Of a stretch of DNA of 64,000 nucleotides, positions 20,864-27,020 are shown piece after piece. Source of the DNA: Candidatus Peribacteria bacterium RIFOXYB1_FULL_54_35. GTDB taxonomy: Bacteria > Patescibacteriota > Gracilibacteria > Peribacterales > Peribacteraceae. Each line of letters begins with the position of its first letter. Positions within the stretch are counted from its first letter, which is position 1. The stretch is from assembly GCA_001787755.1 (NCBI GenBank), contig MFYJ01000012.1:62001-126000 (forward strand), given 5' to 3'. Under the pieces are notes generated by a model, which was given only the letters and a program-made list of their open reading frames with translations, was not told the DNA's origin and did no database searches. Position numbers and translations under genes: made by a program.

Positions 20864-20870
20864 CTAGGTG
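20854..20870 (+). promoter_or_regulatory. pyrD -10 region, near-leaderless
   Basis: TATTAT (20854-20859) and the overlapping TATTCT (20857-20862) lie 8 and 5 bases before the GTG at 20868. Either predicts a start within 0-3 bases of the codon. Confidence 0.4.
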
Positions 20871-21809
20871 AATCTCTCCCAAACTATCCTCGGCGTCACC
20901 TTCGAGAACCCCACGGTACTCGCTTCGGGGATTTGGGGTATTACAGCGGCGAGTTGGCGAAGGGTGGCTGAGAATGGGGCGGGAGGAGTGACCACCAAAT
21001 CTCTCTGGATTCGTGAACACAGAGGGCACCAAAACCCGACAGTCATTTCTACAGAACACTGGACACTCAATGCCGTCGGTCTCCCAGACGCTGGCCCGGA
21101 GAAGGCGCGGGAAGAGATAGGGGAGTATATGAAGGACAAGCCGGTTCCTCTCATTGCCAATATCGTTGCGGGAGCGGTGGATGATTTTGTTGCGATTGCA
21201 GAGGAGATTGTGAAACTCTCCCCGGATTTCCTTGAAGTGAATATTTCCTGTCCGAACGTCGACGATGAATTTGGGAAACCCTTTGCGTGCAGTGCTCCGG
21301 ATGCCGCACGGGTGACCAAGGAGGTAAAAGCGGTCAGCAAATCCATTCCTGTCTTCATTAAGCTGTCGCCCAATGCTCTCAGTATCGCCGATGTGGCAGT
21401 TGCATGTGCAGAGGCCGGTGCGGACGGGTTTACCGCTATCAACACCGTCGGGCCGGGCATGGCAATCGACCTGCGCTCGCGCATGCCCATTCTCGCGAAT
21501 AAAGTCGGCGGCCTCTCCGGTCCCGCCATCAAACCAATTTCTGTCCGGTGCATCGCGGATGTCTACAAGGCAACGGAGGGGAAGCTCCCCATCATAGGAA
21601 CGGGGGGAGTGTACACCGGAGAAGATGCTCTCGAACTCATGCTCGCCGGTGCATCACTCATTGGCATCGGTACGGCCATAGGCGACCGTGGCCAGGATGT
21701 CTTTAGAAAAGTTTGTGAGGAAATGAATGCCTGGTGTGAGAAGGAGGGAATCAAGAATATTGCGGAGATGGTAGGGGGCATGCACAAAGAACTCGCTTCT
21801 CGCTCGTAA
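20868..21809 (+). CDS. pyrD: Dihydroorotate dehydrogenase, catalytic subunit (class 1B)
   Basis: This FMN enzyme oxidises dihydroorotate to orotate in pyrimidine synthesis. It has 313 residues. NISCPNV near residue 125 contains the catalytic cysteine of class 1 enzymes, and the C-terminal GTGGVYTGEDALE segment binds the FMN phosphate. Class 1B enzymes pass electrons to NAD+ through PyrK, whose gene follows after 6 bases. The start codon is GTG with a promoter box almost on it. Confidence 0.95.
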   Translation: MNLSQTILGVTFENPTVLASGIWGITAASWRRVAENGAGGVTTKSLWIREHRGHQNPTVISTEHWTLNAVGLPDAGPEKAREEIGEYMKDKPVPLIANIVAGAVDDFVAIAEEIVKLSPDFLEVNISCPNVDDEFGKPFACSAPDAARVTKEVKAVSKSIPVFIKLSPNALSIADVAVACAEAGADGFTAINTVGPGMAIDLRSRMPILANKVGGLSGPAIKPISVRCIADVYKATEGKLPIIGTGGVYTGEDALELMLAGASLIGIGTAIGDRGQDVFRKVCEEMNAWCEKEGIKNIAEMVGGMHKELASRS

Positions 21810-21815
21810 CTCTCT

Positions 21816-22634
21816 ATGTCCTCCATTCCGCTCCAGACACGTCTCCCCAGGACCTGCCGCATCAGCGCTATTAAGCAGGAGACGGAGCACGTGCGCACAC
21901 TCACATTCGAAATATCCCTCGGAGCAAGGCCAGGGCAGTTTGCCATGCTCTGGATTCCCGGAGTGGACGAGAAGCCTTTCTCCATTGCCTACGATGATGG
22001 GAAGCACTGCAAGGTGACTTTCTTCACCATCGGTGCTCTCTCCCAGGCCCTTGCAGAGAAGAAGGTGGGGGATCTCGTAGGGGTCCGCGGTCCGTTTGGG
22101 ACATTCTACGAGTGGGAGAAGGGGCAAAAACTGGCTCTCCTTGCGGGTGGGTACGGGGCCGCCCCTATGTACTTTGTGGCTAAAGAGGCGGAGAAGGACA
22201 GAGCAACGCTCGATGTGATCGTCGGTGCCCGCAGCAAGGAGCATCTCCTGTATCTCAAGGAGCTTCAGTCACTTTCCAACACCACGCTGCACATAGCCAC
22301 GGACGATGGGTCGCAGGGATTCAAAGGGTACAACGTGCAGGTGCTCCAGAGCCTCATAGAAGAGGGAAAATCCTTCGATCAGGTGTTTGCCTGCGGTCCG
22401 GAGATGATGCTCAAGGCGGTTTCCGATCTCACGGCAAGGCATAAGATACCGAGCCAGCTCTCTCTCGAGCGGTACATGAAGTGCGGGTACGGTCTCTGCG
22501 GGAACTGCGTGGTGGATCCCCTTGGCATTCGTCTCTGCGTCGAAGGTCCGGTGGTGAAGAACGAGACGTGCAGAAAAATTACGGAGTTTGGGAAGTACCA
22601 TCGTGATAGTGTAGGGAGGAAGCATGAGTTCTAA
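21816..22634 (+). CDS. pyrK: Dihydroorotate dehydrogenase electron-transfer subunit
   Basis: PyrK is the FAD and [2Fe-2S] partner of PyrD class 1B and hands electrons to NAD+. It has 272 residues. The FAD-binding barrel includes RPGQFAMLWIPG and KPFSIA, and the C-terminal cluster motif is MKCGYGLCGNC with a fourth Cys in IRLCVEGP. The gene follows pyrD by 6 bases and overlaps the next gene by 11 bp. No Shine-Dalgarno site precedes it. Confidence 0.95.
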   Translation: MSSIPLQTRLPRTCRISAIKQETEHVRTLTFEISLGARPGQFAMLWIPGVDEKPFSIAYDDGKHCKVTFFTIGALSQALAEKKVGDLVGVRGPFGTFYEWEKGQKLALLAGGYGAAPMYFVAKEAEKDRATLDVIVGARSKEHLLYLKELQSLSNTTLHIATDDGSQGFKGYNVQVLQSLIEEGKSFDQVFACGPEMMLKAVSDLTARHKIPSQLSLERYMKCGYGLCGNCVVDPLGIRLCVEGPVVKNETCRKITEFGKYHRDSVGRKHEF

Positions 22635-24096: not shown

Positions 24097-24123
24097 TTGG
24101 CACTCTTCTTAGGAGAGTGCTAG
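24097..24123 (+). promoter_or_regulatory. CIRCE element (HrcA operator)
   Basis: TTGGCACTC (24097-24105), nine bases, GAGTGCTAG (24115-24123). This differs from the canonical TTAGCACTC-N9-GAGTGCTAA at one position in each arm, with the exact 9-base spacer. HrcA binds CIRCE to repress heat-shock operons. No groES, groEL, dnaK or hrcA follows; the next 190 bases hold only a 15-codon frame and a terminator. Confidence 0.75.
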
Positions 24124-24183
24124 ACATCCTCCCCCCCGATCCGTTACGATGGGGATGTTCTGATTTCTTTCCCATTTCCCGTT

Positions 24184-24231
24184 ATGTGGTTCGACGATGG
24201 AGACGGATGCGGCTGCGGCGGATGCAAGTAA
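24184..24231 (+). CDS. Possible 15-residue Cys-rich peptide
   Basis: ATG at 24184 opens a 15-codon frame, MWFDDGDGCGCGGCK, ending TAA at 24229-24231. It lies between the CIRCE element and a terminator, so it is the only visible short product of that unit. Three cysteines in CGCGGC could bind a metal. It is equally possible that the unit makes a non-coding RNA and the frame is chance. Confidence 0.3.
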   Translation: MWFDDGDGCGCGGCK

Positions 24232-24260
24232 CATCTCGCTGCGAACCGTATTCGAGGCCC

Positions 24261-24308
24261 GCCACGGCAATCGCGATTGCCGTGGCCCGCCCTTTTGGTG
24301 GGCTTTTT
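24261..24308 (+). terminator. 26-bp perfect palindrome plus terminator
   Basis: 24261-24286 is a perfect 26-bp palindrome (GCCACGGCAATCG and its complement). It is followed by GCCCGCC-CTTTT-GGTGGGC and TTTTT (24285-24308), a rho-independent terminator shape. Confidence 0.75.
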
Positions 24309-24386
24309 CGTTACTCGTTTGCTCGTTGCTCGTTATTTTTTGCATGATGGAACAAGCGAACAAGCTCACGAGCAAACGAGCCAACG
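24306..24386. repeat. Short-word inverted repeat (CTCGTT words)
   Basis: The left arm (24306-24334, GTTACTCGTTTGCTCGTT type) pairs with the right arm (24351-24386, AACAAGCGAAC and GAGCAAACGAG words). It uses the same words as the repeat at 4702-4778. Confidence 0.65.
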
Positions 24387-24431: not shown

Positions 24432-24830
24432 TTATTTCTCTCTTCCTACCCAGAAGATTTCCAGGTACTGGAGGATGGGGTGCAGGTCTTTCCCATCGAT
24501 TTTCCGTTTCAATCCTACGGTTTCAGGTTTCTGGTTCCTGAGTACGACGAGTGCATGGAGAGTGAGGCCAAGCAGGATCAGCAGCATGCCAAGGGCAAGC
24601 ATTGGTCCCATGTTTGGTACGACCGCCGCTGCGGGATGCAGCGAAATTCCCTGCACAAAGAACTGGTCACCACTTGGCACCGGTTGACCGGCGATGGCAC
24701 CCTGTCCTGTCTGGAAGAGGAGAGTGGCTTGCAGTGCTTCCTCAGTGCCGACGATGAGCGAGAGGATTCCTGCAAGTACCAGTAGGGCATTGAGGACACT
24801 CAAGATCGGATTTTGCTGTTTATTTGGCAT
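24432..24830 (-). CDS. Uncharacterised small membrane protein
   Basis: A 132-residue protein with two strong hydrophobic segments (about residues 11-30 and 75-97) and a long outside or inside loop between them. The C-terminus is basic. I do not recognise it. Upstream on its strand TATAAT lies 11 bases before the ATG, a consensus -10, so the leader is only about 5 nt. Confidence 0.6.
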   Translation of the reverse strand: MPNKQQNPILSVLNALLVLAGILSLIVGTEEALQATLLFQTGQGAIAGQPVPSGDQFFVQGISLHPAAAVVPNMGPMLALGMLLILLGLTLHALVVLRNQKPETVGLKRKIDGKDLHPILQYLEIFWVGREK

Positions 24831-25044: not shown

Positions 25045-25119
25045 GGCCCCGTCGTCTAACGGTTAGGACCTCAGATTTTCAATCTGGTAACGCGGGTTCG
25101 ATTCCCGCCGGGGCTGCCA
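25045..25119 (+). tRNA. tRNA-Glu (anticodon TTC)
   Basis: The acceptor GGCCCCG (25045-25051) pairs with CGGGGCT; the anticodon stem TCAGA/TCTGG encloses loop TTTTCAA with anticodon TTC; the T arm is GCGGG-TTCGATT-CCCGC; CCA is encoded at 25117-25119. The discriminator base is G, as usual for tRNA-Glu. Fragments of both ends are repeated about 130 bp away on either side. Confidence 0.95.
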
Positions 25120-25237
25120 ACCTTCGCACGCCTTCGCACTGTGCGCTTTGGCGTGTCTTCGGTTGGCAAGCCATTCTTTCGTGAGACAAGGGTTCGACTT
25201 GTCCTCCGAAGACCCGAACGGAGTGAGGGCGAAGGAG

Positions 25238-25257
25238 AATTCCCGCCGGGGCTACCA
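25238..25257 (+). repeat. Partial copy of the tRNA-Glu 3' end (att-like)
   Basis: This stretch matches the tRNA 3' end at 25101-25121 with a single G-to-A difference (ATTCCCGCCGGGGCTaCCAA). Duplicated tRNA 3' ends are typical scars of site-specific integration. The AT-rich methylase/endonuclease pair begins 95 bp further on. No integrase is visible. Confidence 0.6.
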
Positions 25258-25352
25258 ACACTGGCTATAATCTATCGATCCGCTTGCCTCAGCCAAAAAG
25301 TCGAAGTCTGAGGAGGCGAACTTTTCGGTTCTGCACCCGGCTGATCCAAAGC

Positions 25353-26186
25353 TCAATAGTTTGTGATCAAGAGTTCAGTAATATTTCTGCTTTGTGAATT
25401 AAGGTTAATCTCTCTTCTATTCTCAATAGTGTGAATATTAAATGTGCCATATAAATCCCGAATAAGAGCAGTGTCACTATTGCTCAATGCCCAGCGGATG
25501 CCTTTAGCGTCGAGTTTTTGGCAAATACTTGCAAGTCGGCTCTGATCTTTTTCATAGAATTTCAGCTCGGTGTATCGGTTAAAGTCAGAATATCCACCCA
25601 ACTTGTGATAAGGGGGATCAAGATACACGAAATCCTCTTTGGTGATGCCACTGATTCCTTGCTCAAAGTCACCAGTACGGACTTCAACATTCTGCAATGT
25701 CGCTGAAACTGCTTCAAGATTTTCAGGATCGTAATAACGACGGTCATACTCTCCGTACGGCACATTAAAGCCGCCGCTTTTGTTTACCCTGAAGAGACCT
25801 CTAAAACCTGTTTTATTGAGATAGATAAAATGAGCAGCCTTCCGGAACAGATCAAGTTGAACGTGTGGAATACACCGGATTTTTAGGTATTCCTCTTTCG
25901 TATTCTTGAGTGAGTCCAGAATAGATGCCACACGCTCCCAATCGTCTCGGATGGCTAGATAGGTATCTATGAGCCATATATTTTGGTCGCAAATAACTGC
26001 TTCATTTGGCAATAAAGTAAGAAAGACACTCCCTCCTCCAATAAATGGTTCGTAATATGTCTGGGAATCTAAAGGAAAGTACCGAACAAGCGTGGTTGCG
26101 ATTGCCTGCTTTCCTCCAACCCATTTTATGAAAGGTTTTGCCCGCAAAGCCAACAAGCTTGCACTCCGATGATTCACTCTGTGCAT
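25353..26186 (-). CDS. Adenine-specific DNA methyltransferase (D12/Dam class)
   Basis: The enzyme transfers a methyl group from S-adenosylmethionine to adenine N6 in DNA. KPFIKWVGGKQ near residue 18 and YEPFIGGGSVF near 45 form the AdoMet site, and FVYLDPPYHKLGG is catalytic motif IV. With the start at 26186 the protein has 277 residues, right for Dam-like enzymes; an in-frame ATG at 26258 would add 24 residues. The target is probably GATC-like, but this cannot be read from the sequence. The gene is markedly AT-rich compared with its flanks and divergent from a nuclease gene, so it is likely the modification half of an imported R-M system. Confidence 0.92.
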   Translation of the reverse strand: MHRVNHRSASLLALRAKPFIKWVGGKQAIATTLVRYFPLDSQTYYEPFIGGGSVFLTLLPNEAVICDQNIWLIDTYLAIRDDWERVASILDSLKNTKEEYLKIRCIPHVQLDLFRKAAHFIYLNKTGFRGLFRVNKSGGFNVPYGEYDRRYYDPENLEAVSATLQNVEVRTGDFEQGISGITKEDFVYLDPPYHKLGGYSDFNRYTELKFYEKDQSRLASICQKLDAKGIRWALSNSDTALIRDLYGTFNIHTIENRREINLNSQSRNITELLITNY

Positions 26187-26378
26187 TTCTGCATATTTTC
26201 CACTAATCTGTTGAGGATGAGTGATCGTAGCCGCTGGCAGAATCTTGGTTGGCATCATCCGGTGTGGAATCTGGTACGTTATTATTGCTCTCTGCGAACT
26301 GGGAGAGAAAAAGAGAGGTGGTTAGATCAACTCAGAGACGAGAACTGCATGAATGTAAGTAATGGAGAGAGTTTTCAT

Positions 26379-27020
26379 ATGGACAAGGAACATGTGAATC
26401 TCCTCTTGCAATATCTTGATTTTCGTCAGAAGGAACTTGAGAGAGTTTATGCTCTTCTGCGTAATGAGAGGCAGGCACTGAAATTCTGCAAACAATTGGG
26501 CGTAACGGTAAGCAAAACCAAAACGCGCAATCAAGATCACCATCAATCTTCCAAAGCATTGATTGCCGCTGTCACTGCAATAACAAGAACTGTATGTGAA
26601 AGGAAAGGGGTGGACTTTAACCCGAATCCTCAAACCCGATGCGTGTGGTGTTCTAAAAGGGGGCTTCATGTGACAGCGAGGAATTTGGATGGGGCAATAC
26701 CAGCCTTAGCAAACCCAACTATAATATGGGAGATCAAAGAGTACTGGGGATTGACTAGTGGAGGCAGCAAAATGAGTGATGCTGTATACGAGACAAACTT
26801 GGTAGGAAGCGAATTGCGCGAATTCGAGGAACACACGGGAGTAAAAGTGGTACATGTTTTTTTCTTAGACGGGCAACAGCAATGGTCTGTCCGAAAGGCG
26901 GATTTACTGCGCTTCGTAGATTTGATGCACCAAGGTCTCATAGACTATTTGTTAGTGGGGAGAGAAGTGGAGACTCAGTGGGAGAACATACTTGCGTCAC
27001 TTCTGGAGCCAAGAAGTTGA
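26379..27020 (+). CDS. Putative type II restriction endonuclease
   Basis: A 213-residue AT-rich gene divergent from the adenine methylase. I see a PD-(D/E)XK-like core: D in NLDGAIPAL (codon 26688) followed by E and K in IIWEIKEYW (codons 26730 and 26736), and a Cys pair CVWC before it. The family is not one I can name. Start 26379 is preceded by GGAGAGAG with a 7-base gap; upstream in-frame starts at 26169, 26217 and 26349 would overlap or crowd the methylase start. Context, composition and core residues together support a restriction role. Confidence 0.65.
   Translation: MDKEHVNLLLQYLDFRQKELERVYALLRNERQALKFCKQLGVTVSKTKTRNQDHHQSSKALIAAVTAITRTVCERKGVDFNPNPQTRCVWCSKRGLHVTARNLDGAIPALANPTIIWEIKEYWGLTSGGSKMSDAVYETNLVGSELREFEEHTGVKVVHVFFLDGQQQWSVRKADLLRFVDLMHQGLIDYLLVGREVETQWENILASLLEPRS

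Follow-up and report, generated by a model that had tools for sequence, protein, structure and literature searches.

The window, as we call the whole 64,000-nucleotide stretch of DNA that was analysed, carries at positions 24097–24308 a CIRCE operator, a promoter, a 15-codon open reading frame (ORF), a palindrome and a terminator that together form a stand-alone transcription unit (Table 1). HrcA and CIRCE make up a textbook chaperone switch. The earlier note had reported here a near-perfect CIRCE with a 9-base spacer, followed not by a chaperone gene but by a Cys-rich frame of 15 codons, a 26-bp perfect palindrome and a terminator, and we find each of these elements in place. The operator reads TTGGCACTC-TTCTTAGGA-GAGTGCTAG, an inverted repeat of the form TTAGCACTC-N9-GAGTGCTAA in which 16 of the 18 half-site letters equal those of TTAGCACTC/GAGTGCTAA, and it has zero mismatches to the pattern TTNGCACTCN9GAGTGCTA. 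Transcription would start at about position 24157. Outside its perfect core the palindrome continues as wider, imperfect arms that span 24256–24291.

Table 1. Features of the micropeptide unit and its conserved upstream neighbours, in window coordinates
Feature	Position	Strand	Remarks
pyrD-pyrK (dihydroorotate dehydrogenase B)	20868–22634	+	Pfam DHO_dh, DHODB_Fe-S_bind; upstream neighbours conserved in relatives
CIRCE operator (predicted HrcA site)	24097–24123	+	half-sites 24097–24105 and 24115–24123; 9-nt spacer; conserved in 39 units
-35-like TAGACA, sharing bases with the right end of CIRCE	24121–24126	+	same place in 25/39 units
-10-like TACGAT, 18 nt past the -35	24145–24150	+	TAnnnT in this slot in 39/39 units
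Short pyrimidine-rich leader (TTTCTTTCCC) without Shine-Dalgarno	24157–24183 (approximate)	+	pyrimidine motif in 36/39 units
Micropeptide ORF MWFDDGDGCGCGGCK, 15 codons then TAA	24184–24231	+	
26-bp perfect palindrome, RNA hairpin-forming	24261–24286	+	absent from relatives' units
Intrinsic terminator GCCCGCC-CTTTT-GGTGGGC + TTTTT	24285–24308	+	stem 24285–24303, T-run 24304–24308; from sequence and fold

Within the 64-kb window this is the sole place that comes within three mismatches of the CIRCE pattern, its two matches being one site read on two strands, and shuffled sequence yields 0.53 matches on average at this looser level. The strict CIRCE is present in 32 of 59 genomes (the window's own and its relatives) and the pattern read backwards in none of the 59. 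A chance origin of the site was rejected on the basis of the shuffle comparison and the backwards pattern.

The genes upstream of the unit lie on the same strand and encode PyrD, PyrK, a PHP-type protein and a CDP-alcohol phosphatidyltransferase, the stop codon of which is 4 bases 5′ of CIRCE. On the other side, none of groES/groEL, dnaK/dnaJ, clp, hsp20 or hrcA is found 3′ of the operator, and the next likely sizeable gene (24432–24830) is convergent, on the opposite strand. Its product is a small membrane-like protein without a Pfam match that has relatives in 10 other unit neighbourhoods, some of them with weak scores. The space separating the terminator from the convergent gene contains a 13-bp perfect inverted repeat, CTCGTTTGCTCGT / ACGAGCAAACGAG, at 24314–24326 and 24368–24380, with 41 nt between its arms. 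Farther downstream, a tRNA gene (25045–25116), the 3′ end of which is apparently repeated near 25240–25258, is followed by a D12 adenine methylase and a DUF7687 ORF; the interval 25045–27020 is possibly a restriction–modification-like island at a tRNA.

The earlier note had made its reading depend on an HrcA encoded in the genome and on half-sites conserved in relatives, and both are found. An ORF of 237 aa in the window's own genome matches the Pfam HrcA family with 74 bits, and HrcA is found in 68 of 74 genomes of the family and in 37 of the 38 with a CIRCE micropeptide unit. In the window's genome a strict CIRCE also precedes dnaK, and a degenerate one lies just before the start of hrcA. 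The genes located 3′ of strict CIRCE sites are dnaK, clpB, clpC, groES, hsp20 and hrcA; a further recurring class of sites has a tiny Gly/Cys-rich ORF downstream and no chaperone. In some lineages CIRCE is altered alike on both arms (TTATCACTC...GAGTGATA), as expected if selection acts on the symmetry of the site. This symmetric TTATCACTC-N9-GAGTGATA form occurs at several sites in genomes G033, G034 and G061–G063, which suggests a shifted HrcA specificity in their lineage.

We find the CIRCE half-sites kept in 39 units from 38 of the 74 family genomes, the window's included, all of one plan: CIRCE, a promoter touching it, a leader lacking a Shine-Dalgarno sequence, an ATG located 72–87 nt from the start of CIRCE, a Gly/Cys peptide of 9–29 aa and a terminator. 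The units were collected with a sequence-only model built from 16 of them, which covers the stretch from CIRCE to the ATG and includes no coding sequence past it. Searching the 74 genomes with this model returned 37 matches at E<1e-6, and a Gly/Cys-rich ORF follows every one of them (37/37), as it does among the matches outside the model-building set (21/21). Two weaker matches, in G073 and G011, are also units and complete the set. Thirteen of the 39 operators have no mismatch to the pattern given above, 16 have one and eight have two; two units have poor sites, one with three mismatches and one with four. Promoter and leader were scored by patterns that are loose and were picked after inspection of the alignment. 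By these, the -35 element takes one of two layouts, TAGACA at the right end of CIRCE (25 units) or a TTG-type hexamer inside it (the other 14), such that in 39/39 units it lies at or within the operator; all 39 units have TAnnnT in the -10 slot and 36 the pyrimidine-rich leader motif; an SD-like motif is found in none of the 39. A terminator-like hairpin with a T-run follows 39/39 of the peptide ORFs, compared with 31 of 400 random stretches taken from the same neighbourhoods and judged by the same rule. Of the window's unit, CIRCE, promoter, ORF and terminator are thus conserved in relatives and the palindrome is not: the 26-bp repeat of the window is seen in none of the 38 other units, which have ordinary terminators instead. 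Overall, it is very likely that a CIRCE-controlled micropeptide gene exists and is conserved. Two genomes carry additional copies. G029 has a second micropeptide gene in tandem that lacks a full CIRCE (MIGGDEGGCCDGCK; L245, around 755), and the two copies of G096 (L231) are ~4 kb apart, one of them beside a partial pyrK duplicate.

Irrespective of the operator, a candidate peptide gene is present in 51 of the 74 family genomes. In the remaining 23 no peptide gene was found, either by inspection downstream of pyrK (13 genomes, two of these stretches ending early at contig ends) or, in the 10 where no pyrK was detected, by the model search only. Outside the family, 15 of 279 genomes have model matches at E<=1e-5. 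The 12 of these sites that were fetched all lead to dnaJ, dnaK or hsp20, and the peptide scan flagged no peptide at the other three (L031, L039, L068). An exact scan for TTNGCACTCN9GAGTGCTAGACA, which represents one of the two promoter layouts only, found 64 loci in named genomes, with a peptide that is complete at nine and cut by the end of the stretch at one (L127). All 10 are labelled Peribacteria, Peribacteraceae or Peregrinibacteria, and many of the remaining 54 lead to hrcA, groES, groEL, dnaJ or dnaK, with some left unassigned. The named relatives with the unit identify the host as Candidatus Peribacteria. Outside the family, this range refers to peptides under the CIRCE-type promoter.

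The peptides of the units contain two to seven Cys residues and share a composition of 44% Gly and 25% Cys, with CxC, CC and CxxC motifs; in one genus His accompanies Cys. Short ORFs of equal Gly/Cys richness are rare in the background, at 4 of 6214 in 37 neighbourhoods outside the units, and one of these four is the tandem second copy in G029. Residues other than Cys and Gly are barely conserved. When the window's peptide was turned into a degenerate DNA pattern and run against the 74 genomes, only the window itself matched, because the peptides share composition rather than sequence. Ten of the longer peptides (22–29 aa) match no Pfam family up to E 10; at 15 aa, the window's peptide is below the length usable in such a search.

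The earlier note had left the product as either a small RNA or a micropeptide, and the pattern of substitution favours the latter. In 37 same-genus pairs, mismatches counted in frame number 101/74/183 at codon positions 1, 2 and 3, the pairs having been aligned as nucleotides with the frame ignored. Because the pairs overlap with one another, a binomial value is only indicative. Many gaps in these alignments have lengths that are not multiples of three, which is to be expected when repetitive Gly/Cys codons are aligned with no frame imposed. In two species pairs with identical peptides, the DNA differences are all synonymous (3/3 and 1/1). The excess at third positions argues that selection keeps the peptide rather than the RNA, and we consider translation of the ORF likely. 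A stress-induced small RNA with an incidental ORF would suit a transcript of only ~150 nt, and the window copy does fold better than shuffled versions of itself (z -2.7). That fold is explained by the palindrome and the terminator, of which the former is not conserved, and relatives keep the Gly/Cys make-up while their DNA changes. We disfavour the small-RNA product chiefly on the codon-position pattern and regard it as highly unlikely.

The surroundings of the unit are constant on one side only. In 33 of the 39 units a same-strand pyrK is found no more than 1.5 kb upstream, and in 31 of them the gap is at most 409 nt; for the window and G001 it is 1.3–1.5 kb. The pyrK of G062 is inverted and adjoins the unit, and the first copy in G096 is a few kb from pyrK; the units of G020 and G029 are near contig ends, and G024 and G011 have the unit with no pyrK detected. 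The downstream genes vary among neighbourhoods, with no family common to more than a minority of them. A crude script called a first downstream ORF in 37 of 38 neighbourhoods, and in 21 of these that ORF is on the strand opposite to the unit. The constant position of pyrK, together with downstream genes that are variable and often on the opposite strand, makes the gene look old, mostly held in place and transcribed alone. In genus g5 (L297, L298; G006, G085), a small protein that by eye resembles cold-shock proteins is encoded on the opposite strand between pyrK and the peptide gene.

These neighbourhoods bear on three further explanations. A leader peptide that senses cysteine tRNA and attenuates a downstream gene would resemble, in its Cys-rich short ORF and terminator, the poly-Cys leader ORFs of mycobacteria, but such a leader requires a gene to control, and the downstream side offers no conserved candidate and frequently an opposite-strand ORF, as in the window itself; we judge attenuation extremely unlikely. 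Precursors of modified or exported peptides (a metallophore, RiPP or signal) are also short and Cys-rich in some systems. Inspection of the four ORFs closest to the unit on either side, in 38 neighbourhoods, shows pyrD/pyrK recurring, as well as a small membrane protein in a minority of cases, and no modification or export gene stands out as recurrent; we regard a precursor as very improbable. As far as these nearest ORFs go, the neighbourhoods disfavour both explanations. The third assigns the peptide a role at dihydroorotate dehydrogenase B (PyrDK), for instance at the Fe-S cluster of the enzyme. It would account for the constant neighbour, and in genus g27, where pyrK is not detected, the peptide gene is beside another dihydroorotate dehydrogenase, identified by eye. 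Against this, promoter, operator and terminator are all the unit's own, the two genomes G024 and G011 have it with no detected pyrK, and the conserved position may reflect a mere lack of rearrangement. We consider a role in PyrDK function improbable.

The peptide gene is not always under CIRCE. We read the DNA downstream of pyrK in the 23 genomes that have pyrK and lack the unit (two stretches shortened by contig ends), and a Gly/Cys-rich ORF is present in 10 of them. Five of these (G021, G076, G084, G006, G085) carry TTGACAATTRGTTYAGTWCTAAACTA, with a palindrome between the -35 and the -10. Three more genomes with TTGACAATTRGTTYAGTWCTAAACTA (G074, G028, G075) were reached through partial model matches or through the operator; of four such CIRCE-less partial matches that were read, those in G074 and G028 lead to a peptide and those in G008 (C23) and G066 (C13) do not. 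The peptide gene in these eight genomes has no CIRCE and this other palindromic operator instead. When up to two mismatches are allowed, 353 genomes of the class yield the TTGACAATTRGTTYAGTWCTAAACTA motif in these eight and no others, at a single place in each. Two operator searches in the eight genomes returned a single strong site for every genome, invariably the one at the peptide gene, besides scattered weaker sites, and linked no regulator gene to the operator. Five alternative-operator rows have PyrK, and a tree of this protein from 58 genomes places them at two positions, each inside a group that also contains CIRCE units, several branches around these rows being weak; transfer of the peptide locus between lineages may be the source of this pattern. 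In G002, G023, G087, G089 and G091, the peptide gene is present and neither operator was seen by eye. Given eight genomes with another operator and five with neither, heat-shock control is not universal for the peptide gene.

This second operator also bears on an alternative to a free thiol buffer, in which the target of the peptide is the chaperone system: it would be, for example, a feedback ligand of HrcA, GroEL or DnaJ, or a redox or zinc sensor for one of them. Its gene is placed by CIRCE in the chaperone regulon, and nearly every genome with the unit has HrcA. The eight alternative-operator genomes all encode HrcA too, yet they use the other operator, which makes a fixed partnership with HrcA unnecessary, and the sparse conservation outside Cys and Gly is unlike that of a binding partner. 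We consider an action on the chaperone system rather unlikely.

Our preferred reading is that of a monocistronic, HrcA-repressed mini-gene for a micropeptide, to which we assign a probability of roughly 0.6. With its -35 located at or within CIRCE, the promoter would be blocked by bound HrcA. Protein-folding stress would inactivate HrcA and release a transcript of ~150 nt that ends at the terminator, with the Cys/Gly-rich micropeptide (15 aa in the window, 9–29 aa in relatives) as its sole product. We infer HrcA binding and heat induction from the operator, the promoter, the presence of HrcA and what is established about HrcA. As a thiol ligand, the peptide would tie up soft metal ions or buffer thiol damage during proteotoxic stress, making it a gene-encoded analogue of metallothionein or phytochelatin. 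Such a metal or thiol function, suggested by the Cys and Gly content, the CxC, CC and CxxC motifs and the His of one genus, is our best guess, at somewhat less than even odds. More doubtful still is the broader picture that these peptides form a new class of gene-encoded, phytochelatin-like Gly/Cys stress micropeptides in the HrcA regulon of a CPR family, and that on two or more occasions their gene may have come under a different, dedicated repressor, which would recognise a palindromic operator of the AGTTTAGTACTAAACT type and have no other strong target.

Literature searches at the level of titles and abstract beginnings gave no description of a CIRCE-micropeptide unit, which is apparently undescribed so far. 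Here CIRCE would control a peptide that is too short for the usual gene finders and is retained throughout a family of bacteria that are uncultured and have reduced genomes. If our reading is true, the bacterial heat-shock response has a thiol peptide arm that annotation has overlooked, and the operator swap on one orthologous gene is a natural experiment on the stresses to which the peptide responds.

Among known systems, the CIRCE/HrcA regulon of dnaK, groE and hrcA operons is matched in operator sequence, 9-nt spacer, promoter overlap and the presence of HrcA in the genome; the difference is that the gene behind the operator is a solitary one of 15 codons, closed by a terminator of its own, instead of a chaperone, protease or hrcA. 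The mycobacterial leader ORFs mentioned above share a short frame with multiple Cys codons near the promoter and no Shine-Dalgarno sequence, whereas here a terminator follows immediately and no downstream gene is conserved. Bacterial metallothioneins and plant phytochelatins are likewise small, Cys-rich and stress-linked, with CxC, CC and CxxC spacing, and the unit peptides are short Cys-rich proteins with motifs of the CxC type. They differ from metallothioneins in that they are much shorter, in that Pfam gives no metallothionein-family match for the 10 peptides of 22–29 aa, and in that their metal binding is putative; from phytochelatins they are set apart by being gene-encoded, and Gly-rich rather than Glu-rich.
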